20,440 nt of DNA from Lobulomyces angularis (Eukaryota > Chytridiomycota > Chytridiomycetes > Lobulomycetales > Lobulomycetaceae): NCBI GenBank assembly GCA_027604685.1, contig JADHYX010000393.1, positions 1 to 20,440 of the forward strand, given 5' to 3'. Under the pieces are notes generated by a model. That model worked only from the letters and a program-made list of their open reading frames with translations, did no database searches and was not told the origin of the DNA. This document shows, piece after piece, positions 23-20,440 of the stretch. Each line of letters begins with the position of its first letter. The first letter of the stretch is position 1. A program made the translations under genes and the position numbers.

Positions 23-3000
23 TATGAATACAATGATGATGGGATGCCTGTTCCAAAATTAAAAAACAAACAGAATATTGAAGGTATTTTTAAAAACATT
101 TTATTTAATTTTTTTTTTAAAATAAAATAAAAAATTGATGTTTTATTTTATAAAAAAAAAAAAATTTGTAGAAGAAGAGGAAGAAGAAGAAGAGGAGGAA
201 GAATTTAATGAAGATGAACAGAACGATGATTTTAATGGATCTGGTCAGCAAAATAATCTGCAACAATCTTTTTTAAACTCAAAGGAAGATTCACTTATAA
301 TAAGTAAAAAGGAATCTTTGGTATCGATAAAGAAACCTGTTGAAAAGGAATTAAAACAGGATGATTCAAAAATGGAAAGTAACTTAAAAAGAAAAAGTAG
401 TAAAAAGAAAAAACATAGGAGAGATTTTATCCAACAAGATGAAGAAGAAGAAGTTACAAAGAGTCGTTCTCACCGTCGTCATCAGCATCATCAACATCAT
501 CATAAAAAACCATTGACAAAGCATCAGTCTAGATCCGGCTCTGAGACCGAGATGTTAAAAAAGAGATTAAAAAAACTAAAAAAAAAAAAAAAAAAAGAGG
601 AAGAAGGAGAAGAAGAAGGAGAAAATGAAAAAGTGAAAAAAATAAACAACAAGGAGGATTTAGTAGAAAAAAATAATTCTTTGGAAGAAATTGAAAAAAA
701 AAAAAAAAAAATTTTAAACAAAATTTTAGAAAAGCAAGAAAAAATTTACTTGAGCAACTCCAGCACTGGTAATGGTGTAAAAAAAGTTCAAGAATGGATC
801 CAAAGCAATGAAAACTTTATCAACGCTAACGCTGATGGCAATGTTTACGACAACCACGATCATAATGCAGAAAATGCTGAAAAATCCAACTTTGAATTCG
901 TCTCCAACACTGGAATATTTAACAATAGCGGCAAAGATCAACCCGTTAACGACAATCACAATAGTTTGCAACACAGTCTTAACCAATTAAATCAATGTGG
1001 TAATCAAGGGCTTAATGACAAAGAAAATGGTCAGCAGTTTAACAAAACTAATATCCATCAAGAAAATAACAACAATAACCATATTGAAAATAAAAACAAA
1101 AACGACATCGAAAATAATAACAATAACGACATCGGCAGTTATCCAAACGTTAATGGATCTGCCGAAAATGAACTCTTTTATGAACAAGAAGACCATCAAG
1201 ATTTGGGAGAGAGTAAAAATATTGGAAATTTGATAGATGGTTCAGAACAGGAAGATATCGTTGACGACCATCACGCCAAGGACAGAAAGCTTGTCTTATC
1301 AAAAGATGCTCACAAAAATTTTCAGCAACCTTCACCAAGTCAACGATTATTACCTCCAATATCTGCTTTAAAATTAAATTTGCCCAAAGATGCTATAGAC
1401 TACTCTAACAGAAGCCGAAGTAGACAAGAGGAAGAAAGTCGAAATGACCGCAGAAAATCTTACAAAGGAGTAAGTCTAGCATCAATTACACAGCAACAGC
1501 CATGGGGAACTTCGTTAAAAAATGTTCCAAAGAAGAACAATAATGGCGGAAGTGTAAGAAACAGTGCTTCGTTGCATGAAGACAACTACCATGCAAATAA
1601 TAGTATTAATCAACAAAAGAGTTTTTTGGATGAAGATGGCAATGATAATGAATTAAGAAGAAATTTAAATTACAATTTACAAAAGGACGTTTTAGAACAG
1701 GGAAACTGGAATGATGATGAATGTAATGGTATTTTAAAAAATGAAGTAACAAGGAGAAGCATTGGATCTCGTCATTTTGTTCTATGGTAATTTTATTTAA
1801 AGTTTTGTTAAACCAAATTTTATTTAATTTGGAAATATCTTATCTTTTTTAGGTATGCAGAGGATGTTGAATTGTTTGATAATATTTTATTATGGAAAAA
1901 TGAAAATAGTAAAGCCTCAGTTGAAGCAGCTCTAAGTAAATTTGGGAATATTAGCAGGTAACTAAAAGAAAATAACATGAAGTTAAATATGAAATAAATA
2001 AAAGGAGTTCAGATTCAATAATTCAGTTAGTTTTTGGAGTTGATAATTATGATTACATATTAATGTTTTCAAAACTTGATCGAAGGCAAAAAATGAGAAA
2101 CTGTTTTGAAAAAAATTTAATCAAAAAAGGGTCAGTCAATAAAAAATAAAAATAAAAATAAAAGAGTTTTTATATATTTAGATGTATATTTTTTATTTAA
2201 CAAAAGTTATTAAACTGTTTTATTTTTTAGTTTTTTACTTGAATTGGAAGTTTCGATGGAAAATCCAAACAATGTCTTTATAAAGATTCTTTCTCCCTTT
2301 CATTTATTGTGTAAAACTGCTCATGCAGAGAAGTTAAGACTTCCTCTAAAGGTTCACACAAATAAATCTATTTTTTCAAATTCAACCAAACTTTTTTTAT
2401 TTTTTAGAAACAAAATCTGCCGATTTCCACAACAATAATAAACAAACTTGCACCAAGTTCATTTGCAAAATTTTTTAATGTCGAGGAATTTGTTGATTTA
2501 AACCAACAAACTGGTCAGTTTTCAATTGAAAATTTTCAGCAATTCAAAGGTGTTGAACCAAACACTCCAGTTGGGATTATTCAAAAAAACTTTTTTAAAC
2601 CATTTCATAGATCACTTTTGGTAAAAAAAAAAAATTAAAGGATTTTAAATTTTTAATATTTAATTTTTTTTAGACTAGAAAAGCTATTGAAGCGATCAAA
2701 ATTAAGATAGTTGGTAGACCTATAGCACAATATTTGGGAATAACATACTTTTTATCAGAAAATATTTACACAAAGTTTTATTATCCTCATGATCAATTTA
2801 GAGACGTTGAAACTCTGCGAGGCATTAGTTTGCGAGAGCACTTAAAAAAGGAATGGCTTTCAAAATGTACTCTGCATCAACCATTGGATCACATCAGAGA
2901 TTATTTTGGTGAAAAATTGACATTTTATTTTGCTTTTGGCAGCTATTACACGTGCTGGTTGATAATATATGCCATTTTTGGTATGAATCTCTTTTTTTTA

Positions 3001-4754
3001 ATCTTTGAATAAGAAAAAAAAAAAAAAGAAAGCAATAAATTTAATATTTTAATTTAGGACTCATCGTTACGTTTTATGGCATATATGATATTAGAAATAA
3101 TGGTGCAGAAGACAAGTGGGCATGGCGAAGACTATACGACAACAAATTAATGCCTTATTTTAGTTTCTTTACAAGTTTTTGGGTTGTTGTGTTTTTGGAG
3201 TTTTGGAAAAGAAAGACAAACTACTTAGCTTTTGAATGGGGATTGTCAAATTTTGAAAATGAAGAATCAATTAGAGCAAATTTCACTCCAACAACCAACA
3301 AAATGTAAGTTGAAAAAAAAAATAAAATAAAAACAAAGAGACTTACAAAAACTTTTTAAAAAAAAATTTTCTAGAAATTTAATAAAAGGAAAAAGTGAAC
3401 CAGATTTTCCTTCATCAAAAAGAATCTTTCGACAAATAATATCCTTTATCGTGATTTTAATAAATTTTACGTTTATTTTATTCACACTGTACTTGCAAAT
3501 CCTCTTTGAAAACTTTTTATTCAACTACAAAAAAGACGATTTTTCATTTAGTTTGAGCACAATTCTCTTTTTGAGTGCAGTTTTAAATTTTTTGTTCATT
3601 AAAATCTTATTTAAAATAATTTTTTTTCCAATTTTAAAAAAATTAAATAATTTTGAAAATTATAAAACTGATACTACTCATATGGATAACAAAATATTAA
3701 AAATTTGGTATGAAAAAGATAAATACTCAAATTTTATTTTTTTTTATTTTAAAATATTTAATTTTTTTTTTTTTTTTTTTATTAGGGGAGTAAGTTTTTT
3801 TAATATTTACGCACGACTCTTTTACTACACTTTTTCAAAACCGTTTTTTCTTAATTTGAATGATTATGGATGTTTAGTAAATTGCACCACTGAAGTTCTT
3901 GCACAAGTTGGAGGTGTCTTTTTAGGTGATATTGTATTTGGAGTAATTAGTGAGATAATTGCTCCTTTACTATCGAAAAACCGAGAAGATTCTAAAGCAA
4001 ATAAAAATATCATCTTTCCTCACCCAAACACTTTGAGTCCTTATGGTGTTTCTGCTTCTACTTCCTCCTTGTTAACAAACGGCGATCAAAAAAATTCAAC
4101 CGTATTGCCTTTAACCTCTCCTCATGTTGTTGATAATAACTTACCTGAAATTGTATAAAAAAAAAAGTATAATATTTATTAAAAAAAAAATTAAAAAATA
4201 GACTGATGAACTTGAGCTTGATTACTTACAAAAGATAACCCAATACAGTATTTTGGTCATGTTTTCTGTAATTTTTCCTCCCGCTCCATGTATAGCGTTT
4301 ATTGGTCAATGTTTCCAAAATCGTAGTGATGGTTATAAATATTTATTTTTGTATAAAAGAATACAACCAAGTCAAGCACAAGATATTGGTAAAAAAAGAA
4401 TATATGTAATAATACAGTAGAAGATGACTAAATTTTTTTTTTATTTACATAGGTAGATGGTATGAAATATTGAGCTTTATATCAGTACTGGCAGTGACGG
4501 TTAACGTGTTACTGGTAGTTTATCTTTCCAACTCCTTTGAAGAAACATACCTGACCAGATACGAAAACAGTAATTGGCCATCAATAAGACTAGGAATCGT
4601 CATTGTTTGGCACATTGCGATATATATTTTTAAATATCTAATTTCGTTTTGTATACCAGACATCCCCAAGATGGTTAAGATTGCCAAGGCCAGAGAGGCA
4701 TACTTGGAAAAAATTGTCATTTTAGGTGATAACGAATATGATGACGAGGAATAG
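23..4754 (+). CDS. Anoctamin (TMEM16) family membrane protein, 5' end missing
   Basis: Exons: 23-83, 172-1786, 1853-1957, 2005-2130, 2231-2351, 2408-2620, 2674-2980, 3058-3304, 3375-3707, 3786-4152, 4202-4388, 4453-4754; all phases agree, giving 1327 residues plus TAG. Position 22 ends a probable acceptor (poly-A then AG), so earlier exons probably lie outside the window. Residues 1 to about 560 are low complexity: Glu runs, Lys runs, a His-rich patch and Asn-rich stretches, probably disordered. Residues about 560-815 match the cytosolic anoctamin N-terminal domain (HLLCKTAHAEKLRLPLK; YYPHDQF; IRDYFGEKL). About 815-1300 is the multi-span TMEM16 core (FLEFWKRKTNYLAFEW; SEIIAP; QDIG.WYE). The family comprises Ca2+-activated phospholipid scramblases or channels and ER-plasma membrane tethers such as yeast Ist2. 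The ATG at 135 lies inside the first intron and is not the start. Scramblase versus tether role is unknown; the Ca2+ site looks degenerate. Confidence 0.9.
172..206 (+). repeat. GAA/GAG microsatellite encoding poly-Glu
   Basis: The first bases of the large anoctamin exon are a nearly pure run of GAA and GAG codons, coding for about eleven Glu in a row. It lies in the disordered N-terminal region and is a likely length-variable site. Similar in-frame poly-Lys A tracts occur near 581-597 and 694-710. Confidence 0.8.
3708..3785 (+). other. In-frame, stop-free intron of the anoctamin gene
   Basis: The stretch begins GTATGA, ends in a long T tract plus ATTAG, is 78 nt (a multiple of three) and has no stop in frame, so a naive reading frame runs through it and adds a poly-Phe segment. 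Removing it joins KIW to GVSFFNIYARLFYY. This aligns without gaps to the remembered family pattern in which Asn, Tyr and Leu-Phe-Tyr follow at fixed spacing. Confidence 0.8.
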
Positions 4755-7136: not shown

Positions 7137-8471
7137 ATGTCAAGTAGCAGTAAAGATGCTTTAAAAACATTTCAATTGGAAAACAACATAGTAAATATAA
7201 GCGATCAAGATTCAATATTTAAATTTGATGCGGAAAAGCAAAAACTTGAGAGTAATGGCAGACCCTGGAAAAACAAGTAACAAAAAAAAGAGTTTTTTTT
7301 TTATTTTTTTTATTTATTTTTTTCTTTTACTTACATTTATGATTGTGTGAAAAACAGTTCTTTTTTTTTTTTGCTATACCAAAAAAAAATTATTATCTTT
7401 TAATTCAATTCTAACAAACAAAAAAAAAAACTTATATTTCTAGTCCAAAGTATTTCACAAAAGTGAAAATATCAGCTGTTGCATTGATAAAAATGGTAAT
7501 ACACGCTAGATCGGGGGGAAATGTTGAAGTAATGGGCAGTCTCCAAGGAAAACTAGATGGCGATACCATTATTGTAATGGATACGTTTATTTTACCTGTA
7601 GAAGGTACAGAAACAAGAGTCAACGCTGGCAATGAAGCTAATGAATATATGGTAGAATTTAAAGAAAAGTCGCTGTTGGTAAAAATGCAAAAATTTAAAA
7701 GAAAGATTCTTAATTGATTTTTTTGAAATTTATTTTTTATAAAAAGGTTGGAAGATTGGAAAATATTATTGGTTGGTATCACTCGCATCCTGGTTATGGT
7801 TGTTGGCTTTCTGGTATCGATGTTGGAACTCAAAGTATGAATCAAATGTATTTGGATCCATTTGTTGCAATTGTTATAGATCCACATCGTACTATTTCAG
7901 CAGGCAAGGTAGAAATTGGTGCTTTTAGAACTTATCCTAAGGTATTAATAAATTTTATTCAAAAATTAATATTTTGATTTTAAAAGGATTATAAACCACC
8001 AGAAGAAGCAACTTCTCAATACCAATCTATACCATTGAACAAAATTGAAGATTTTGGAGCATTTCACAATGAGTACTATCAACTAGAAGTTTCTTGTTTT
8101 AAATCTAGTCTGGATGATCATTTATTAGAAGTTTTGTGGAACAAGTATTGGGTCAATACGTTATCTTCTTCGCCACTAATAACAGTATAACTTTAACAAA
8201 AAAAATTGAACACAGTTAAATTTTTTTTTTTTTTTTGTGAATTGCACAGAACAGAGACTATAACTCTCAGCAAATATCCGATTTAGCCCAAAAAATTGAA
8301 CAAACTGAATTTCAAGGAAAAAATAGTGGTTTTAAAAGCCATGGAAAAAAGTTGGATGAAACTCTACTTGGTAAACTGGTTAAAGATAGTACTAAACTTA
8401 GTGTTGAATTTAATCACGGAATCATCTCCCAGGTTTTAAAAGATCATCTTTTTAATTTGAATCCTGCTTAG
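7137..8471 (+). CDS. CSN5: COP9 signalosome subunit 5, JAMM deneddylase
   Basis: Exons: 7137-7276, 7444-7678, 7747-7941, 7987-8184, 8250-8471 (TAG), giving 329 residues, close to the usual size. CSN5 is the zinc metalloprotease of the COP9 signalosome and removes NEDD8 from cullins, acting in nucleus and cytosol. The MPN+/JAMM centre is complete: Glu75 (EVMG), then [14 protein letters not shown] with His137, His139 and Asp150. Other family blocks are present: [61 protein letters not shown] and a C-terminal helix ending [10 protein letters not shown]. The spacing of the metal ligands argues for CSN5 rather than the proteasome subunit Rpn11. The intact ligands suggest an active enzyme. The start at 7137 gives the expected N-terminus (FQLENNI, then the IFKFD block). 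Confidence 0.97.
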
Positions 8472-8731: not shown

Positions 8732-9456
8732 TTATTTATTCACTAAATGGCAACATTCACTATTTTCTTTCCAGTTAAATGAACCGTCTTCATAGATCTC
8801 TTTTTTCCAAATGGGACACGTCCTTTTAAGCTCATCTATAATAAATTCACAAGCTAAAAAAGAAACTTTTCTATGAGAACTTGAAACCTATTTTTTTTTT
8901 TATTTTTATTATTTTTTTGTAAGAAAATAGAAATAAAAAAAAAATTGGTACATACAGCAATACAAACACTCTCTTCTCCAACAAGACATTTGCCAATTTT
9001 ATGTTGAACGGCAATTTTGTTGATGTCTTGAAATTTCGTCCTAGCCAACTTCACTGTTTTTTGCATTTCTTTAATAGCCATTGGAGTGTAACTTTCATAT
9101 TCCAAGCTCACCACCTTTCTTTTAATTCCATCAACTGGAAAAAGAAGAAGAACAAAAAATTAAAACATTTACAATTTTTTTTTTTTTAAAAAATAATTTT
9201 TAAACAAAAAAAAGAAAAAAAGTGAAAAATAAAATAAATAAAAGAAAAAACAAGAGAGAAAAAAAAAAAAAAAAAGCAAATTAAAAAAGAAAGAAAAATT
9301 ACCTACAAAATAGTTTCGAGTTGTACCAGAAAAAGTACATATTGCTCCAGAATCCTCTGTTCTAACTTTATCAATCAAAACTGACAAGTTGAGATTTTCA
9401 TCTGTAATGTCTACAAAATCGTTATGGTATTTCATTAATTCTACCTCGTCAAGCAT
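8732..9456 (-). CDS. MOCS2B: Molybdopterin synthase catalytic (large) subunit
   Basis: Exons, high to low: 9456-9303, 9134-8956, 8887-8732 (TAA), giving 162 residues. MoaE/MOCS2B converts cyclic pyranopterin monophosphate to molybdopterin using sulfur carried on the C-terminus of the small subunit MoaD/MOCS2A, in the cytosol. Family signatures run in order: [33 protein letters not shown] and the Lys-rich active-site block [12 protein letters not shown], whose two Lys positions match the catalytic lysines of MoaE, followed by NWKENSEC. The gene converges on CSN5. No MOCS2A-like reading frame was seen nearby, so the human-style bicistronic arrangement is not found here. The 168-nt intron between exons 1 and 2 is almost pure A/T homopolymer. 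Presence of the gene implies molybdenum cofactor enzymes in this organism. Confidence 0.95.
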
Positions 9457-9689
9457 ATTAAATTTTTTTTTTTTTGAATTGTAGAATAATGAAAATTTGA
9501 CCCAAAAAAATTAAATAAAAAGTTTTCAAAAAAAAAAAAAAAACCGTTGATATATTCTAAGGAAATATCATAAAAGTAACTTTTTATTAGATCAAAGTAT
9601 AGACGTTTTAATATGACAAATTTTTATTTTTTTTGTTTTATTAACCTATTTTAATTAATCTATGTAATGTGAGAAATTCATTCTATTTT

Positions 9690-10841
9690 TCATGAATCAT
9701 GATGAATTCTCTTATAGATCTTATTGTATCTAAAGTCTCCTATCACTAACTCATATCCATTTGGAGGATTTCCTCCATCTTCGATAATGATGAACGCTGG
9801 TTGGTAACCTCCATTCAATACATCCTCCATCACCTGTAGTTATTAAAAAATGAACCTCAATCATCATGAAAAATTAAATACCTGAACAGGTGAGTAGCCC
9901 TCAATATCAATAGACAAAACTCCAAAATTCTTTGGGACGTTTTTTTCTCGCAATACATTTACAATTGGTCTAACTTGAACTTTTTCAGTTAGAGAACTTT
10001 TTTCATCGACTCTTGTTCGTTTCAAAGAGTTTTCTGTTGGATTTATTGTGTTTATGTAAAGAAGCGTTTCCCCTTCCTCGCTACCGATAGCTGCTTTAAC
10101 CATATGAATATTTTGTCCTCTCGAAATAAACTTTTTTAAATTGGCAACGATTAGATTAAAACTTTCTGAAAAAGGTTCAATGATAACTCCACTCCAACCA
10201 AGGAAAAAAAAATTATATGAATCGCTTGCAAGTAATCCATCAAAACCGCCTATATAAATAAAAAATTAACCTCTTCTACCGTTTTTTTGATTTATTAATT
10301 TTTTATTTTTTATTTNNNNNNNNNNAAAAATAAAAGAAAAGTTTTTTTTACCTATATCAACTACAAATTTTTGATAATATTGAGAAAAAGGATAGTTTGT
10401 GTAAGTAATTATGTTATTAATTGCTGAAAACTCAAAATCCCAAGATACATCGACCATTAATCTATATGTTTGTCCATTTTCTCCAACAAACTAAAAATAA
10501 AGAAATTATTAATAAAAAAAATATATAACCATTCACTTGAAACTATTTTAAATTTTTTTTTTTATATTGTCACTAACATAAAGCCTTTCAATAACCTGGG
10601 TTATAATACCCCTCAAACCGCCAAACATATAATCATGAAGTGATTTTGATTTTAAGAATTCCTGTTGATTAAAGTTTTGAAAAAAATGTCTGACATCTAA
10701 AACCAACTTGAAAGTAAAAAATACAAGAACTAAAATAAATGCCAAAAAACTAAGTTTGAGGAGTTTAAAATAAAATGTTTTGTTTCGTAAAATTGAGGAT
10801 ATCGAACGATGACGCTGATCTGTGTTTAAAGGAGAATACAT
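9690..10841 (-). CDS. Type II membrane protein with FkbM-type methyltransferase domain
   Basis: Exons, high to low: 10841-10578, 10490-10352, 10249-9882, 9833-9690 (TGA), giving 304 residues. Residues about 28-48 form one strongly hydrophobic segment after a short basic N-terminus, suggesting a single-pass type II anchor with the catalytic domain in the ER/Golgi lumen. The domain shows the SAM-binding loop VVDIGGFDG (from residue 131), then GVIIEPFSESFNLIVANL, NIHMVKAAIGS and LSIDIEGYSPVQ (Asp249, Glu251), and a final FIIIEDGG. This order is typical of Methyltransf_21/FkbM proteins, which include bacterial O-methyltransferases and many eukaryotic proteins of unknown substrate. The first intron could alternatively start at GTTATT, 15 nt earlier in transcript order; GTTAGT at 10577 was preferred. 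The second intron contains an assembly gap. Substrate unknown. Confidence 0.82.
10316..10325. other. Assembly gap (10 N)
   Basis: Ten undetermined bases flanked by T-rich and A-rich runs, lying in the intron 10250-10351 of the FkbM-type gene. The coding frame is not affected because the exons on both sides join in phase. The real intron length is unknown. Confidence 0.99.
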
Positions 10842-11077: not shown

Positions 11078-14000
11078 TCATCTTTTTTTCATTCTACTAA
11101 TTTTTTTTTGTGGACTAATTTTTGCTTCAATTGGGTAACTGAATATACTTGAGTCACTATCGTCTAATAAAAAAATAGTAAGGATGTAATTTTTATTTTT
11201 TTTAAAAAGTACCGTTAAGTTTTTTAGTTTTTATTTCCTCATTGCAATCCTTAGTTAACAATTTTTTGGGGGAATGATGGAATTCTTTGCAAAAAAGAAA
11301 ACTTTAATTGAAAATCTTTCCTGAATTTTACCTTTATCACTGAGTTCTTCATCTAAATTATTTTTATCCACCGCTACATTATCCTCCATTCCAACACTAT
11401 CATATTCTTCACTTTCAGTACAGTTTAAAACATTTTTTATTTGTTTACTGGATCTGCGGGTACTAACCCTCGTCTTATTATTATAAGACTTATCTTTATC
11501 TAGCTTGGTAATTTTTTTCCCTGCAAAATCGCTATCACTATCACTGGAGTGTTCCTTTGCAATTTTTTTTGGTGTAAAAATTTTTAGTTCTCCTTCTACA
11601 TTACTCTCATCACTGTCACTAGCTTTATAAATTTTTTTATTTTTATCCACACTTCGTCTAAGATTTCTAGATTTTGTTCCCACATTTTCACTATTGCCAA
11701 AAAAATCATCAATTGTAGTTTTTTTTTTTTTGTTGCTGGTATTTAACTGTTTGTTTTCAGTAACATCAGCCTCCTCTTCTTTCTTGATTGTTTTCATTTT
11801 TTGATCGTCAGCTTCATTGTTTTTCAACTTTTCAACAGCTGACCTGGAAAGTGGTTTAAAAAAGGGGGATTGTTCAGCGTCTTCACTAGAAAAATCCAAA
11901 TTTTCGCCTGTTGGAACCAAAAACCTTCTAACACGCTTGGATTTAGGTTTTGGTTCTTTTTTTATTGTAAAATCTTTTTTAGCATTTTTCCTTTTTCAAA
12001 TTAATTTTGTAGTATTTCCTTAATATTACTTACTGTGAATCGCTCTCATCTTCTGTACTAACGTCATCTTCGTCACTGGCATTCTTTATGATTTCATTTA
12101 CATTATTATCGGACATGATAGTTTCATTCTCATCGGCATTATTTTGAAAATCTGTCATTAAATTTTGCTCTGATATTTTTTTCATTGCTTTTAATGTCGA
12201 AGCTCTTCTAGAAGAAGTTCTTTTATTTGAAGGCATCTCAACTTTGAGAATAGAATAATCAGTTTTTATTAGTTTTAAAAAAAAATTTGTATTTTTACTG
12301 TTTTTCTCCAATTCTATGTCCATCTTCTCATAATCGGATTCACTGTTTTTGTCCTCGGCAGACTCGGAATCGTTAATCGTTTGAACAGCATTCTTTTCCT
12401 TTTTTTTAAAAAACTTATCGATGGTAGAATTTTTCGCTGGTGCTTTATTTTCAGTTAATGGTTTTTTCTTTGTTAAATTCTCAACAGCCTCAACTGTTTC
12501 TGAATATCTCGGTTTTTTTACATTAAACTTTATTTCACTCTTCGATTCAAAATCGTCGTCGGAAAATGCATCCTGTTTTTTTCTTTTTCTTAAATTTAAA
12601 TTTAATCCTCTAGACTTCTTCATAACTACCGAGTTGGGGTTTTTTATTTCAGCTTCTTGTTCCTATAATATAAATGTAAGAATAAGTTCAACCACTGAAG
12701 GTAAACTTGTCATTCACCTCCCATTCCTGTAAAAAGTCTCTCAGCTCATTTTGCCAGATAGTGCTTTCACTCAAGGATTGCAATGTTTCCAACTCTTTTT
12801 TTTTTATTTCCTTTTCTTTCAATAACTTCTCAAACTTCTCATGAGTTATACTCCAAATTGGCATTGAAAGAAGATAATTATAATTTCCTGATTTTGATTC
12901 CTCATTTTCATTTTCAATATTTTCATCCGATTGTGCAATTTCATCACCATTAAGTTTTGAACGGAATTCTACGTATTTAGCTTTTTGCAACATCTCAATA
13001 ATGATATCTTTTTTTTTATTTTCCAACTTCAATTTTCCATTAATAATTTCACCCAAAAATCGGCATTTATTTTCTAGCTTGAGTAATTCATCTGCCAAGG
13101 TTTTTTCTAAAAATTGTTTCCTTTTTTTGTAAAAATTTAATCTAAATTCAAAGTAATCTTGTAAAATTTCAAAAACGGAAGAAAATTTTTTCAACTTTTC
13201 GTCTTTATCAAATAAAACCATGTTCGTTAGAGATTTTAAGTTTTGTAATTTAAATTTTTTTATAATTCCTTGAGGTTCTTCTTGGAGGTTTTTCAAGTTT
13301 TCCGCGGCCATGGATATTACAAAATGAACTTTCGTTTCAGTGTGGTATTCTTTATAATCCTTAAAAAAAGAGATTTTAAATTAGTTTTTTTTCATTAAAA
13401 AAAAAAAAAAAAAAAAAAATTCCTAATACTTTTATAAAGGCTGGAGATTTTTCACTTCCTTGAACTAATTCCTCCAAAAACTCTTTGTAACTCTGGGTCC
13501 AAGTACCTATTGGTAATTCAGTAATTTCCAACGTGGTTTCGTTCTTCACCTCATAAACTCCAGTAGTGGTATATTTGCCTCCGCCAAGGTCTTCAATATT
13601 TCCCTATTGTATAATAATAGTATATAAAATTTAATGTATTTATTCCAATACCGTAAATCCTCTATACCATGGCTTCATACTTACAAATTCCTCTCCATTT
13701 AACTTTCTCAGTAGATTTTCAACAATCTCTTTTGGATTGTAGTTAAATGTGAAAGTACTCCATCCAGTTCCAATACCATCACTGCCATTAATTAAAACCA
13801 TGGGAAGAATGGGAACATAAAAATCTGGCTCTATATTTAAACCTTCTTCATTTTTATAATTTAAAATGTTGTTATCTGAAGGATTAAAAATTTTTCTTGC
13901 AAGAGTGCTTAATCTGGTAAAAATATAACGCGGCGCTGCATGGTCTTTTCCACCTTGCAACCGAGTACCGAACTGCCCCAAGGGTTCTAAAAGGTTTATA

Positions 14001-16916
14001 TTATTACTTCCTACATGGGTAAACGCCTAAAAATACTTAATACTTTTTTATTAATTTCAAAAAAATTTGCTCACCAAGTTAATCATGGTTTGTGCTAAAG
14101 AAGTTTCTCCATGATGATATGCAGAATGCTCTGATACATAACCAGCAAGTTGAGCAACCTTAAATGACATTGAAATTAAACTGAAGCAGTTATTAAAGTT
14201 TTACTTTTAATTCTCCTTTAAACAAATTTCTTTTAAAGCAGGAAAACAAAATTTTTCTTTGCCCAGGTTTCAATCCTACAAAAATTAAACAGTTACAAAA
14301 CAGGTTCTAGTATACCATCAAGTACATTGGGAATAGATCTAACATTATCTGCCATAGAATGCAAAATCAATTCCTTATTCACGAAGTCTTTAACTTTTAT
14401 CTCTTCGGCAAGGTTATTTAGGTATATTCCGGCTTGATAATTTTCCAACCAAACTTTTCTCTCATTCGCCTTCTTTTTGCCAAAAGCCATTTCTAAGCAG
14501 TTTCTATCATCTTCTGCTAAACTTTCAAATGGTCTTGAATTTTAAAAAAAAATTTAAAAAAAAAAAAAAATTCAAAGTTTTACCTAACATGTCTTTCCAT
14601 GTTTTGAAAGTACTTTTTAGCATCTGATGATGTGGAAGTACCCAAACCTTTGTAATATTTAATATTCCAAGAGTTTATGGTAGTGATATTTCTTTCCCTC
14701 CAATTTTCATATTCAGTAATTGTAAAAAAGGAAATTTCCCTGTTATTTGTAGAAGCTCCTTTTTTTGTGACTTTGACAATAGGCGTAATGAATTGCAAAA
14801 TAAAACCAGGAATTTTTAATAAACTTGGCCAAAAATGATCAAATAAGTTTAAAATCAAGCCTTTTATATGGCTACCATCGTGATCCTTTGAAACGTATAA
14901 AAAGTGTGGAATTAAAATTTGAATGTAAAATCTGTAAAACCTGGTCTGTCATTATCATTACATGTCCATATCTTAAACTCTCCACACTGTTGTAAACCTT
15001 TTTATGTTGCAAGCCCAAAATTTTTTTAATATTGGATATTTCTTCATTATTCATAATTTTTTCAGTGTTGGCGTCTCGAACGTTTAACATCTTACCACGC
15101 TTATGGAAAAAAAAAAAAAATAACATTATTAAAGAGCAAATCCTTCAAAATACCAAAGGAAATACGCCGAATTTATCTCTACCAACTACACTTAAGCCAC
15201 AAACTGCAAGAGCTTTGGCACTATCACCTTCAGTTAAAATTAAGGTACAGTCCTTGGCCATTTTCGTTCCTGCAAGATTGGCATCATCTAACTTTGATAT
15301 TCCACTTAATCTACTTCTCTTTGTTCCATCAGTCTTTTTCATTAACTTCTCCTCTTTATTTTTTACTAATTGCATTAAATTCGTGACAATATTGGTTTTT
15401 TGAATTAACTTTTTTACAAAGTCTTCAGATATATTTATAGTTGACCCAAATTTGGATGGTTTTAATGTCATTGTTTCTTTAGTTTGTGAATCAAAACTTG
15501 GATTTTCAATGAGGCTATTAACAAATATCCAGAGTTGAGATTTTATGTTAAAAGGTTTTATTGCTGCTAAATCTTTAGTTTGTTTTTTCATTGATTCTAA
15601 TAGGCTAGACGTAATTTGGTCCACAACATAATTTACATGAGTTCCCCCTTTTATTGTACATATACTATTTACAAAGCTGACCTGCAGCGATTAATAATAT
15701 ATTCGAATTTTAAAGTTTTACTTGCTGGAACTGTCCGTCGCTCTGCACACAAATTACCTCCCATCTCTCATTCTTTTGGGTTGAAAAAAACCGCTTATTT
15801 CCATCCCTTTCCTCCACACTATTTTCCGCTTCACTTGATTTGATATATAATTTCACGTAGTCAAGAAAACTTTTTATTTTAATCAATTTTCCATTTAAAT
15901 ATACTTTGACCCCTCTAGTGGTACCAGCAATATCATACACCCTTTTCGATAAGACGGAGCAAAAATCTTCATCCATTAATTTTAAATTAAATCGTTTTAA
16001 ATCAGGGTAAAATGTAATTTTGGTAAAGTCTTTTCCATCATTTTTCTTTAATATCGGCTCATCCTTTTTTGACATATTATCTTTAAATACCTATAATATA
16101 TAGATTAGAAATAAAAACAAAATAAAAAAATTACCTGTTTAAATTGCAATTGATCTTCTTCACTACTAGTTTCAACTATAAACTTTTTGGAAAATATATT
16201 ACATAATTTCGCACCCTATAATAAATTCATCAGTTTTGACAAATATGCATAAAAATTTACGTATCCTTTAATATTAATTACGTTAATAACTTAATATATA
16301 CAGTTACTCACCGTTTCTTCCTCCAACTATTTTTTTATCATTGTCATCATAATTTGAACTGGTCAATAGATTTGCAAATATCATTTCTGGTACATAAATT
16401 TGATGATCTTTGTGTATTTGAATTGGAATTCCTTTACCATCATTGTACACAGAACTAAACAACAATTTTTTTTTTTAGTAGGATAAAAATTTTTTTTTTA
16501 GAAGGATAAAAATTGCCTCCAGACAATTACATCTTGAAATCATCTATTGTAACTTTAATAGTCGTCATTGATGGGTCTCTGATTTTGTTATCGGATGCGT
16601 TCGACAGTATTTCATCAAAAATTTTGTATAATCCTGGACAAAAGCTGATATTTTTTTGGGACAACATCCCATCCTTTTCAATCCACATCAATGCATCTTG
16701 AGCTTCGATGGAACCTATATATGTATCTGGTCTTAATAAAATGTGTTCGAGTTGAGTTTTTTTTCTGTTGTTTGAAGTTTTTCAAAAAAAAATTAATTTT
16801 TTTAACGATTTTTAAATAAAAAATTTACTGGTAGACTTGTTCGATCGATTTGTTTGATTTGCTCTGTCAAATTTCAATGTAAAAAAAAAAAGTTTTTTTG
16901 AATTTAAAATTACCAT
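11078..16916 (-). CDS. TOP2: DNA topoisomerase II
   Basis: Exons, high to low: 16916-16914, 16863-16829, 16764-16531, 16454-16312, 16265-16261, 16215-16135, 16090-15722, 15681-15154, 15099-14941, 14885-14584, 14533-14316, 14275-14205, 14158-14075, 14026-13652, 13603-13430, 13359-12718, 12662-12034, 11990-11332, 11284-11213, 11163-11078 (TGA). This gives 1622 residues, a normal family length. The enzyme passes one duplex through a transient double-strand break in another, using ATP, in the nucleus. The GHKL ATPase shows YKIFDEILSNASDNK and GRNGYGAKL (about 135-143), then the QTK loop (FDSQTKETMT). The Toprim domain has EGDSAK (about 441) and DQDHDGSH. The winged-helix domain has the catalytic Tyr in APRYIFT (about 778). 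All catalytic residues are present. The last 480 residues form a charged Ser/Asp/Glu/Lys-rich tail with two FF motifs. A further in-frame intron at 12242-12298 is possible. Confidence 0.96.
12242..12298 (-). other. Possible in-frame intron in the TOP2 tail
   Basis: A 57-nt stretch on the minus strand starts GTAAAA, contains CTAAT and ends CAAAG, with no stop in frame. As coding sequence it gives a hydrophobic, Phe/Leu/Ile-rich segment in an otherwise very charged tail. Removing it gives KNIEMPSN and keeps the frame. Both readings are possible; transcript data would decide. Confidence 0.5.
16261..16265 (-). other. 5-nt micro-exon of TOP2
   Basis: On the minus strand the sequence reads AAAG|GATAC|GTAAAT. 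Joining the flanking exons directly would give RNGAKL. Including GATAC gives RNGYGAKL, the invariant ATP-binding glycine-rich loop, and keeps the frame. The flanking introns are 46 nt (16266-16311) and 45 nt (16216-16260). Confidence 0.85.
16914..16916 (-). other. Start-codon-only coding exon of TOP2
   Basis: The second exon (16863-16829) opens in phase 0 with SKSNKSIEQVYQ, and unspliced sequence before it contains a stop in that frame. The only fitting upstream donor is ATG|GTAATT, which leaves the ATG alone as the coding part of the first exon. The 50-nt intron ends GACAG. In-frame sequence before the ATG runs into a TAG about 13 codons upstream without another ATG, supporting this start. 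Confidence 0.75.
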
Positions 16917-17119: not shown

Positions 17120-18480
17120 CTACAAATTAGATTTTAAAATTTTATTTTGATTTTCTTTCTGCTCTCCTTCAAAATACGAATCCCAAACAACTTTTAATTC
17201 CCCTTTCAACTCTGCGTTAATTTCAGCAGGTAAAGTGTTATAGGCACTAAACTTAATGTTTTCATTAAAAATTCCAGGTAAAACTCCTTTTGCTAAACTT
17301 GATCCTCCATCAACTCGTAATGTAGCACCTGTGATATAACTAGCTGCTGGAGACAGCAAGTACACAATTGCAGAAGCCACTTCACTCTCTGTACCTAATC
17401 GACCGGAAGGGTTTTCCCAACTAGTAATTATTCATTGAAAAACGTGTAAGTTGACAAATCACATTTTTACCTTGAAAGAAAGAACTCTTTTTGAATGTGT
17501 TTAGGATAGTTATTAACTCCATTTCCTATTATTTTTCCAGGTGCAACATTGTTTATTCTAATTTTTGAGGAACCCTGAACAACAAAGTACGTTATTTATC
17601 GTAAGGTACTCACCGTTAAAAAAAAAGAGTTAAAACTATTACCCATTCCACCGCCAAACTTTTTGAAAGATTTTCAACTGCAGCCCTGGCAGCACCAGTA
17701 TGTGACATCATTGGAAATCCTTGAAACATCTGTTTGATTCTTTGATAAGAAAAAAAAAAAAAAAAAAAGTACGTCAAAATTGAAACCTCTGCTATAACAT
17801 TCACTATACACCCGCCATTTTCTTGCATATATTTGTCATACACGGCTCTGGTAACAATCCAAGTTCCGTTTAAATTAGTATCAATTACCTATTGATTTAC
17901 AAGTTTAAAAAAAAAAGGAATTTTCAAATTGTATAGTTTACTGCTTTCCATCCTTTTTCTGATATATTAGCAGCTAAAATTGAAGTTTATTTTTTTTAGT
18001 TTAACAAATAGTATAGTTTGGTACCTGGACTTGCAAATTGACCTCCTGCATTGTTCTAAAAATTTCTTATAAACTTTATTAACTAAAAATTCTCACCACT
18101 AAGCAATCTATTTTTTTGTACTTTTTTAAAATTTCAATAATCCCATTATCCACGCTAAGCTTGTCTCTTATGTTCATAACAACTACTTCAATAGTTCCAG
18201 GCAAACTTAATTTTTGAAACTCATCCTTTGTTTTTAAAAGTAGTTCTTTTCTTCTACCAGCAATAATTACTGAACCGCCCAACGCACATAGTTCAAAAGC
18301 CGTTACTCTTCCGATGCCTTTAAATGATTAACAAAAAAAAATGTCTGATCGTACCTGTGCCGCCGCCTACATAAGTACCAACAACGATAAAGAAGAATTA
18401 ATAAAAATTAAGTTTTGAGAACCAGTAATTAACGTCACTTTATTTTTAAATAAATTTTCTCTAAAGATTGAATTTTGCAT
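17120..18480 (-). CDS. PECR: Short-chain reductase, peroxisomal trans-2-enoyl-CoA reductase-like
   Basis: Exons, high to low: 18480-18423, 18366-18355, 18317-18097, 18055-18025, 17973-17942, 17888-17787, 17729-17643, 17574-17471, 17420-17120 (TAG), giving 315 residues. PECR uses NADPH to reduce trans-2-enoyl-CoA in peroxisomes; its close relative DECR2/Sps19 reduces 2,4-dienoyl-CoA. The Rossmann fold shows LITGGGTGIG (residues 17-26) and the NADPH-type IIAGRRKELL. NNAGGQFASPA, EKGWKAVIDTNLNGTW, HTGAARAAVENLSKSLAVEW, IRINNVAPG and LLSPAASYITGATLRVDGG follow. The NNAGGQF and TGAAR wording fits PECR better than DECR2. The canonical YxxxK is replaced by TxxxR, as I recall for PECR. The C-terminus is SNL, a weak variant of the peroxisomal SKL signal. 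It lies 203 bp upstream of TOP2 on the same strand, without functional link. Confidence 0.85.
18355..18366 (-). other. 12-nt micro-exon encoding the SDR cofactor loop
   Basis: On the minus strand, GTAG|GCGGCGGCACAG|GTACG gives a 12-nt exon. It joins LIT to GIGR as LITGGGTGIGR, which is the NAD(P)-binding TGxxxGIG motif. Without it the motif is lost, although the frame is kept. The downstream intron (18318-18354) is only 37 nt. Confidence 0.88.
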
Positions 18481-19670
18481 ATTATTTAACAAAGTATGGG
18501 ATAATTTATTACTCCGAATTCACCAAATTAGTTAAGAAGGAAGCTTGTTAATTCAAAACAACGTTGAAAACTAGGAGTAGAAATTGTATTAAGATCAGTA
18601 ATATAATATGAAGAAGAATAAAAAACATTGATCAAGTATTCATATCAAAATGAACATATCTATTTTTTATATACATAATCCACTAATCTACACTAGATTT
18701 TTTTGAATAAAATTTGGTACAGATTCACTGGCATTATAATTTCAGCATTGAAAAAGTAGATTGAGAAACTTTTTTTTTTTATCATAGCAAAACTATAAAA
18801 ATGAAATTTCTTTTTCCACTTGGATTGAACTGAATTGGTAATTTTTTCTCTTTTCTGTGATGTTTTGTCACCTATTTCAACTTCATTCATCACTCAGGAA
18901 GGTACTTCCATGTAAAAATCAATGATTGCGTAGGTTCGGCAAATATATCTATCAGTTCCTCACCTTTTATAAGTTCATCCAATATTAATGCAAATTTTCT
19001 CAAATTTCATAGATTTTATCCATGTAATCTCAATTATTATAACTTATGTAGGTTCATTCATATCATTAAAGTTCCTCAACTTGAAGTGGGTAAAAATCAA
19101 TGAAACTTTCGTAGGTTGCTCCTACTCTAGACAATTTCCTACGTTGCATACATCCTCACCAAGGAAGATTCTACCACACATTTATCCTCACAAGGCACAA
19201 GGCCACTTCATCATCGATCTAGTGGTTCATCATAAATCATTTAAAAACATGTCAGTTCAAACAAAGAAAAAACAAATAACAGGGCTTTTGTTCGTGTAAC
19301 ATTTCAGACTAAGAAAAGGGATTCCTTATCTTTTTCTCTTCTCTTTATTTATATTTATCCATCTCTCATTTAATTTTATAGTAAAATGAATTAAATTAAC
19401 AATTAGTTTCAAACTTTAGTTGTTTCACAAACAACAATTCGAAATATTTTCAATAACAACAAAATTCAAACACTTTTCTTTGTCCAAAATTTTGGTGGCC
19501 ATTTTTTTTAAATTTTTTTGCATATTCACAAAATTTTTTCTCATTGTCAACAAATAAAAAGTATCCCGTGTATTTTTTTAATTTTTTATATAAATATAAC
19601 ATTTTTTTTTTTTTTCAATCTTTTTTTTAATTTTATTTTCATTTTTTTATTTTTTTAAATTATATTTACA
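18481..19670. other. Intergenic region between divergent genes
   Basis: A 1.2-kb stretch between the PECR-like gene (minus) and the nuclease gene (plus), so it should hold both promoters. The middle (about 18900-19260) is less A/T-monotonous and contains a degenerate repeat. The right end (19500-19670) is T-rich and leads to the ATG in the context TTACAATGG. Open frames at 18988-19299 (plus) and 18693-18893 (minus) have no recognisable family and overlap the repeat or simple sequence, so they are not called as genes. No tRNA or other RNA was recognised. Confidence 0.6.
18907..19160. repeat. Degenerate tandem repeat, about three copies
   Basis: Copies at about 18907-18967, 19018-19083 and 19084-19160 share the blocks CCATGTAA/GGTAAAAATCAATGA, then GTAGGTTC, then GTTCCTCAACTT or CCTCACC. 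On the minus strand the copies read as similar peptides (AEPTQSLIFTW, QPTKVSLIFTHF, and NEPT followed by a stop). The repeat may therefore come from decayed coding sequence or an old element. Unit length is irregular, roughly 60-110 bp. Confidence 0.55.
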
Positions 19671-20440
19671 ATGGGAATCAAATCTTTGCACCATCTTATA
19701 AAAAAAAACGAATTTCTTCAAAAAGTAGAAAAAGAACCCTTAGTTAATTTGATGCGAGGTAAAACTGTATATATTGATGTACTAGGAGCGTACTACCGCT
19801 CTTTTATCAATTCTTGTGCAGAAGGGTGGAATACTATCTTCTCGGAATTAAGTTTTTTGATTGAAAACAACATAGATTTGATATTTATTTTGGATAGTGA
19901 CAAATTGAGCATCCAAAAAAAAGCAACTTACTTTCAACGACACAAAAAAGAAAGGAAATTACTTCGTAGAATAAAAAATTTAGAAAAATCCAAAAAATGT
20001 AAACGAAAAGCATTAATATCCATAAAAAAATTGGAAACCCTGTTATCAAAATTTAAAAGTGTTGACAAAAACAAAATTAAAGAAGCCTTTCCTAAGGATG
20101 CTCCACTAAATTGCTCATTACAGGTAGCAGACTTTGAAGCCGACGTTTGGATTGGGCATAAAGGCAAAAAGGATAATCAAAGAATTGTAATCAGCAATGA
20201 TTCTGATTTATTAGTTTATGAAAATACAAAAATTTTGATACGACCAATGGCTGCAGAATTTTTTATTATTAACAAAGAAAGTTTTTTAGGTAAATATAAA
20301 TGCAGTGATTATAATTATATTTATTTTTCAGAAAAATTGGACCTCACAATAAAAAAATTTATATGGGTATGCTCTCTTTGTGGAAATGATTATTCCAAGA
20401 ACGTTTACAAAAAAGGAATTGCCACAGTTATAAAGACTGT
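19671..20440 (+). CDS. XPG/EXO1-type structure-specific nuclease, 3' end missing
   Basis: Exons: 19671-20289 and 20332 to the window edge. It starts MGIKSLHHLI, the free N-terminus typical of the FEN1/EXO1/XPG family, nucleases that cut branched DNA or flaps with two metal ions. The acidic ligands I can place are Asp in VYIDVLGAYYR, Asp in IFILDSD, Glu and Asp in DFEADVWIG, both Asp in ISNDSDLLVY, and Asp in CGNDYS. All metal positions thus look acidic. A very basic helical stretch (about residues 85-150) sits where FEN1 has its helical arch. SNDSDLLVY resembles EXO1 more than FEN1, but the protein is diverged and I cannot assign an orthologue. A 42-nt in-frame intron splits the region before the helix-two-turn-helix. 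Confidence 0.82.
   Translation, partial: MGIKSLHHLIKKNEFLQKVEKEPLVNLMRGKTVYIDVLGAYYRSFINSCAEGWNTIFSELSFLIENNIDLIFILDSDKLSIQKKATYFQRHKKERKLLRRIKNLEKSKKCKRKALISIKKLETLLSKFKSVDKNKIKEAFPKDAPLNCSLQVADFEADVWIGHKGKKDNQRIVISNDSDLLVYENTKILIRPMAAEFFIINKESFLGKYKCSDYNYIYFSEKLDLTIKKFIWVCSLCGNDYSKNVYKKGIATVIKT
20290..20331 (+). other. In-frame, stop-free 42-nt intron of the nuclease gene
   Basis: Starts GTAAAT, ends TTTTTCAG, is a multiple of three and lacks stops, so the reading frame stays open through it. Removing it gives ESFLEKLDLTIKKFIWVC. This matches the family spacing between the segment before the helix-two-turn-helix and the (C/L)xxxGxDY block; retention inserts 14 unrelated residues. Confidence 0.8.

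Follow-up and report, generated by a model that had tools for sequence, protein, structure and literature searches.

Can a coding exon of only five nucleotides (nt) complete the ATP-binding loop of an essential enzyme? This question is raised by a topoisomerase II (TOP2) gene of the chytrid Lobulomyces angularis that lies on contig JADHYX010000393.1 (assembly GCA_027604685.1), a stretch of 20,440 nt that we refer to as the window and that is the whole of contig C392 in an assembly of 20.76 megabases and 533 contigs. The gene is on the minus strand and runs from position 16916 to position 11078 of the window. An initial annotation, made from the letters alone, had proposed that five bases (GATAC) situated between two short introns are needed to restore NGYGAKL, the ATP-loop motif of the family. 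Our analysis indicates that GATAC is probably a real micro-exon and one more case in a known class. In particular, we put at roughly 93% the probability that the TOP2 gene in the window is intact and probably functional and that its mRNA includes GATAC as a constitutive exon, an estimate that draws on the sequence, a splice solution that is unique among those enumerated, the motif, an intact gene model, and the statistics of intron sizes and splice sites.

The candidate exon and the motif that it restores

The gene model and the features around GATAC, with splice-site ranks obtained from weight matrices, are listed here.

11078..16916, minus strand: whole TOP2 gene model, 19 exons and 18 introns (40-168 nt), 1598 residues
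16312..16454, minus strand: exon 4, 143 nt, 3' end ...GTTGGAGGAAGAAACG (AACG), phase 1
16266..16311, minus strand: intron 4, 46 nt, GTGAGT...TTAAAG, donor rank 8/53, acceptor rank 34/53
16261..16265, minus strand: exon 5, the micro-exon GATAC, 5 nt, which finishes a Gly codon and then encodes the Tyr of NGYGAKL
16216..16260, minus strand: intron 5, 45 nt, GTAAAT...TTATAG, donor rank 42/53, acceptor rank 6/53
16135..16215, minus strand: exon 6, 81 nt, 5' end GGTGCGAAATTATGT (GAKLCNIFS...)

The span 16216-16311 consists of intron 4, GATAC and intron 5, exactly 96 nt in all, so that the coordinates originally proposed, and the placing of GATAC between introns of 45 and 46 nt, match the minus-strand reading exactly. 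Joining exons 4, 5, and 6 gives AAC GGA TAC GGT GCG AAA TTA (NGYGAKL), and the spliced reading around GATAC is VGGRNGYGAKLCNIFS, in an otherwise intact gene model. Skipping of GATAC results in NGCEIM*, with its early stop, and retention of either intron 4 or intron 5 results in an in-frame stop. At 5 nt, GATAC falls within the size range that we use for micro-exons (internal coding exons of at most 15 nt), and the introns on either side of it are GT-AG introns whose lengths are normal for the genome.

To what extent the five bases are needed was addressed by enumeration. No single cut restores GGRNG[YF]GAKLCNIFS among all cuts, with any dinucleotides, whose ends both fall in a region reaching from the last 21 nt of exon 4 through the first 21 nt of exon 6. 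When two introns were allowed (with GT or GC donors, AG acceptors, introns no shorter than about 20 nt, and outer ends at most about 20-30 nt away from those of the model), only one of the solutions enumerated gave the motif, and that solution was GATAC; alternative exons of 8 nt and 29 nt were rejected, each requiring a first intron of 22 nt and leaving the motif replaced or padded. We also shuffled the 96 nt 200,000 times, preserving dinucleotides and holding the terminal GT and AG fixed. A middle exon between AG and GT that restores NG[YF]GAKLC and leaves each intron at least 35 nt long was present in 206 of the shuffles (~0.1%), and any stop-free, frame-restoring middle exon was present in 30,602 (15%). 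Because 15% of the shuffles allow a stop-free middle exon, restoration of the frame is by itself weak evidence, and it is the restored motif that constitutes the strong part.

Relatives of the protein point the same way. As templates we used all 120 proteins listed in a first TOP2 search, together with a spliced protein-to-DNA aligner that was written for this analysis and that places GT-AG introns and, at a penalty, GC-AG introns. All 120 of these relatives carry G[GS]RNG[YF]GAK, in agreement with the earlier view that the restored NGYGAKL is the ATP-loop motif of the family. With each of the 120 templates the aligner picked GATAC with the same four boundaries, and with each of them masking of GATAC reduced the score, by 35-48 BLOSUM62 half-bit units (median 44). 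The best model obtained once GATAC was masked contained, for 117 of the 120 templates, a 112-nt intron (16327-16216) that cuts out VGGRNGY in frame. Among the ten commonest exons of at most 30 nt in the window TOP2, GATAC was picked by 120 templates and the other nine, which lie in the variable C-terminal tail, by at most four each. Note that the same aligner and templates yielded no recurrent exon of at most 30 nt in a second TOP2 gene of the assembly (any single one appearing with at most 3 of the 120 templates), and that the aligner likewise yielded none in PRP8 (any single one with at most 2 of 37 templates, these being the ones longer than 2200 residues among P0121-P0160, from 120 relatives listed). 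Since no such exon recurs in either gene, the aligner does not readily invent micro-exons. Taken with the stop that follows from skipping, the solution that is unique among those enumerated and the unanimity of the templates bear out the proposal that the five bases are needed.

The TOP2 gene model was assembled by hand and has no stop over all 1598 residues, its first coding exon and C-terminal tail (exons 17-19) being hand-modelled with little or no template support. Pfam matches to PF02518, PF00204, PF01751, PF16898, and PF00521 extend over residues 63-1133, and the five expected domains (HATPase_c, DNA_gyraseB, Toprim, TOPRIM_C, and DNA_topoisoIV) are found within the first 1148 residues. 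By these matches a GHKL ATPase, transducer, TOPRIM, and breakage-reunion region are united in a single chain, as befits a eukaryotic TOP2. Residues 63-151, which are covered by the HATPase_c match, take in GRNGYGAK, a motif that is part of the ATP-binding site in this family and that is present in the window TOP2 only if the micro-exon is included. At the start of the gene (16916-16864, minus strand) the start codon seems to be the sole content of its coding exon, with a 50-nt intron directly after the ATG; the joined reading there, MSKSNKSIEQVYQKKTQLEHIL, resembles the family by eye, and the templates give no confirmation. Within exon 17 (12300-12240, minus strand) the reading SKNTNFFLKLIKTDYSILK resembles a translated intron, and a further short intron may lie there.

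Proposed splicing of GATAC and competing explanations

Intron sizes were assessed in a set of 53 introns from three modelled genes (18 + 19 + 16), a few of which were modelled by hand or have the support of a minority of templates. Of these, 52 are 37-76 nt in length and the remaining one, a hand-placed intron of the tail, measures 168 nt. All 53 are GT-AG introns, which is partly so by construction because the aligner admits only GT-AG and penalised GC-AG introns. The introns that flank GATAC (46 and 45 nt) fall within the range of the 52, so that their description as GT-AG introns of normal size stands. Because 45-46 nt is a normal intron size for this genome, intron definition would be expected, and it is probably the natural mechanism for the introns flanking GATAC; indeed, for introns of such short length intron definition is expected (PMC8378409). 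Each of the two introns would be recognised across the intron, and introns 4 and 5, although separated by only 5 nt of coding sequence, would each be excised separately. Their removal would proceed one after the other, since a gap of 5 nt would bring factors at the inner acceptor and the inner donor into conflict, and the mRNA of the window TOP2 would then contain GATAC as a constitutive 5-nt exon. We infer this splicing, the order of removal and constitutive inclusion from the features set out above. In Caenorhabditis elegans, a micro-exon with a shortened flanking intron is described as no longer needing PRP-40 (PMC8378409). For Prp40 itself, the genome gave a single FF-domain match, which was not assigned to Prp40.

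The initial annotation had gone further and held that an exon this small challenges exon-definition models. That claim was overstated, because the introns are in the range of intron definition (37-76 nt for 52 of 53) and exons of 1-5 nt have already been published (PMC12940212, PMC8831610). Splicing models are not overturned by GATAC.

Several observations weigh against constitutive inclusion of GATAC in a functional TOP2. The inner splice sites are mediocre (34/53 for the acceptor of intron 4 and 42/53 for the donor of intron 5) whereas the outer ones are strong (8/53 and 6/53), so that a 96-nt skip is conceivable; taken alone, this arrangement favours joining of the outer sites with the exon skipped, although skipping is made less likely by length, 96 nt being more than any of the 52 introns of 37-76 nt. 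In addition, the branch leading to the window TOP2 is long (1.31 changes per column) and none of the matches listed in two protein searches is close to it, and given these two facts reduced constraint on this copy is conceivable. The same observations lend some support to a single longer intron, of either 112 nt (16327-16216) or 96 nt (16311-16216), which would leave a TOP2 that is truncated or lacks the GYG loop, and thus a decayed or non-ATPase paralogue: the outer sites are strong, the window copy is divergent, and the 112-nt intron, which is in frame and removes VGGRNGY, is the best choice of 117 of the 120 templates once GATAC is masked. However, such an intron costs 35-48 half-bits relative to the micro-exon model in every template, both of its possible lengths are beyond 37-76 nt, the motif that it sacrifices is carried by all 120 relatives among the matches listed, the remaining frame is open, and the presence of AG-GATAC-GT would have to be a chance event (~0.1%). 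We consider a single intron very unlikely.

More improbable still is an error of assembly, or else the deletion of 5 nt where the exons meet, in which case GATAC would be in an intron by coincidence. Two coincidences would be required, namely that exactly these five bases were lost at the junction and that the same five occur between an AG and a GT; moreover, a motif-restoring exon flanked by AG and GT is expected by chance in ~0.1% of cases, and each half of the 96 nt is as long as a normal intron. What favours an error is that the analysis covered a single assembly, in which a DNA search with 396 bases around the exon returned the locus itself only and so provided no allele for comparison; on the same result, the existence of another allele or copy of the micro-exon locus was rejected. 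A different possibility is that a real micro-exon is included in a regulated manner, which overlaps with the explanation that we prefer except that the latter assumes constitutive inclusion. Skipping would yield NGCEIM* and switch this TOP2 copy off, a degree of skipping would be favoured by outer sites that are strong and inner ones that are weaker, and a microexon switch has been reported in Trichoderma (PMC11121469). Against this, the sequence contains no sign of regulation, and we regard regulated inclusion as unlikely. Constitutive inclusion of GATAC in an intact TOP2 gene is our preferred explanation.

A second TOP2 gene and the history of the locus

When the assembly was searched with a TOP2 protein, matches fell on C392 and C238 and on no other contig. 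C238 contains the following gene.

Contig C238, L006 1268-6694: second TOP2 gene, 1508 residues by model

The C238 TOP2 agrees at 99.6% with a record (P0075) from Clydaea vesicula, a member of the chytrid group Lobulomycetales; across 1428 aligned positions the two differ by 2 mismatches and one 4-residue gap. The C238 gene is only distantly related to the window TOP2, for which the best identity among the matches listed is 59%. The GC content of third codon positions is 0.282 in the window copy and 0.288 in the C238 copy, and the AT content of the introns is 0.80 and 0.78, respectively, so that the two contigs are alike in both respects. Judged by the C238 match, the assembly probably comes from Clydaea vesicula or an organism very near to it.

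In the C238 copy NGYGAKL is encoded within one exon. We compared intron positions on one template (P0001), on which 15 introns were placed in the window copy and 17 in the C238 copy. Three positions are exactly common to the two, neither intron flanking GATAC is found in C238, and the C238 intron closest to the micro-exon site is 14-19 nt further downstream. The window copy therefore has a micro-exon because two introns sit there that are absent from the C238 copy, and these two introns may have originated by independent gains in the window copy.

That the two copies are sisters was rejected in a tree test (p-AU 0.001), indicating that they are not recent duplicates, although the test is weakened by the fact that an earlier tree had already been seen and by the long branch and unusual letter make-up of the window copy. 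In the best 30-row tree the window copy grouped with a chytrid 'a' clade, a kinship that had a support of only 21 and was not adopted. Among the matches listed, several further chytrid species are represented by two to four TOP2 records each, and part of these additional chytrid records form a separate clade (support 98). These findings suggest an old TOP2 duplication in chytrids.

Tiny exons elsewhere, annotation and neighbouring genes

We asked how often exons of this size would arise if introns were placed at random (18 introns on a coding sequence of TOP2 length, with the length of PRP8 taken as ~7000 nt). For a gene like the window TOP2, an exon of at most 5 nt was present in 28% of the trials, so that no special cause is needed for GATAC. 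Over the three genes, 0.85 exons of at most 5 nt are expected and 1 was observed; for exons of at most 15 nt the corresponding values are 2.5 and 1, and the probability of finding at most one is 0.27. A sample of three genes is too small to reveal an excess or a shortage of tiny exons. As a tentative suggestion, and one that we think rather doubtful, the spliceosome of this chytrid, using intron definition on uniform introns of 40-75 nt, might have no effective lower limit on exon size, with micro-exons arising genome-wide at the neutral rate that random placement of introns predicts. If so, micro-exons would be present in many genes, mostly unannotated, and would not be rare selected oddities.

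Exons as small as GATAC have precedents. In Fusarium, CYP621A has a 1-nt exon between two introns that restores a conserved PKG motif; it was found through comparison with an intron-less family member, is present in 20 orthologous genes, and is confirmed by transcripts (PMC12940212). The same source reports an 8-nt exon in a Phanerochaete cytochrome P450 gene and exons of 2-5 bp in Arabidopsis, Drosophila, and human. GATAC resembles the CYP621A exon in being fungal, in lying between two introns and in restoring a motif, but is 5 nt long rather than 1 nt, and is supported by sequence evidence whereas the CYP621A exon is backed by its orthologues and transcripts. Plant micro-exons of at most 15 nt include a 5-nt rice exon that was validated by sequencing of reverse transcription PCR products and the 1-nt exons of APC11 and VPS55 (PMC8831610). 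Like GATAC these are very small coding exons, often missed in annotation and some of them in one gene copy only; unlike GATAC they are from plants, with many being conserved across species and supported by RNA. The MPC1 micro-exon (4 bp) is constitutively included (PMC9929638), and it shares with GATAC its tiny size, a length that is not a multiple of three, and constitutive inclusion, which for GATAC is our reading of the locus. What sets GATAC apart from it are flanking introns of 45-46 nt and splice sites of ordinary strength. Finally, micro-exons of at most 27 nt in C. elegans depend on PRP-40 (PMC8378409). Intron definition is the proposed route for those exons as it is for GATAC, but they are regulated and neuronal, and PRP-40 matters more where the flanking introns are longer, those of GATAC being 45-46 nt. 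Judged on titles and the beginnings of abstracts, the papers listed in our literature search included none on a topoisomerase II micro-exon, none on micro-exons in chytrids, and none on chytrid introns among the best 12 of 355 returned for short introns in chytrids; nor did a genome report for Clydaea vesicula come up.

It had also been predicted that standard gene finders would miss the exon and report a damaged ATPase. The masking experiment, in which a 112-nt intron replaced the micro-exon for 117 of 120 templates, agrees with that prediction as a simulation and only as such. The two protein searches reached proteins of ~631-2009 residues that share words with residues 1-500 and proteins of ~380-1207 residues that share words with residues 481-980; among the 120 matches listed for each, there was no annotated protein of the window copy, whether intact or broken, and shorter, longer or unannotated models are possible.

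In the public Clydaea model of the C238 TOP2 (L006 2017-2078), NIFS is missing directly after GYGAKLC, which fits use of an AG that is 12 nt downstream of the acceptor picked by 119 of the 120 templates. The same public model lacks the first 80 residues of the present model. This model suggests that such annotation errors do happen in Clydaea vesicula. The window locus therefore offers a checkable case in which chytrid genome annotation could silently damage an essential enzyme, at the ATP loop of TOP2, and a simple test of whether fungi with short introns tolerate exons of any size.

The other genes and domains recognised in the window are as follows.

2674-4754, plus strand: anoctamin-family gene with several exons (PF04547)
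7415-7977, plus strand: JAB1/MPN protease domain (PF01398), spread over two open frames with a probable intron between them
9169-10841 (minus strand), 17120-18327 (minus strand) and 19659-20438 (plus strand): a weak MoaE match below the curated cut-off, an FkbM methyltransferase, a short-chain dehydrogenase that adjoins TOP2, and an XPG-type nuclease that runs past the contig end
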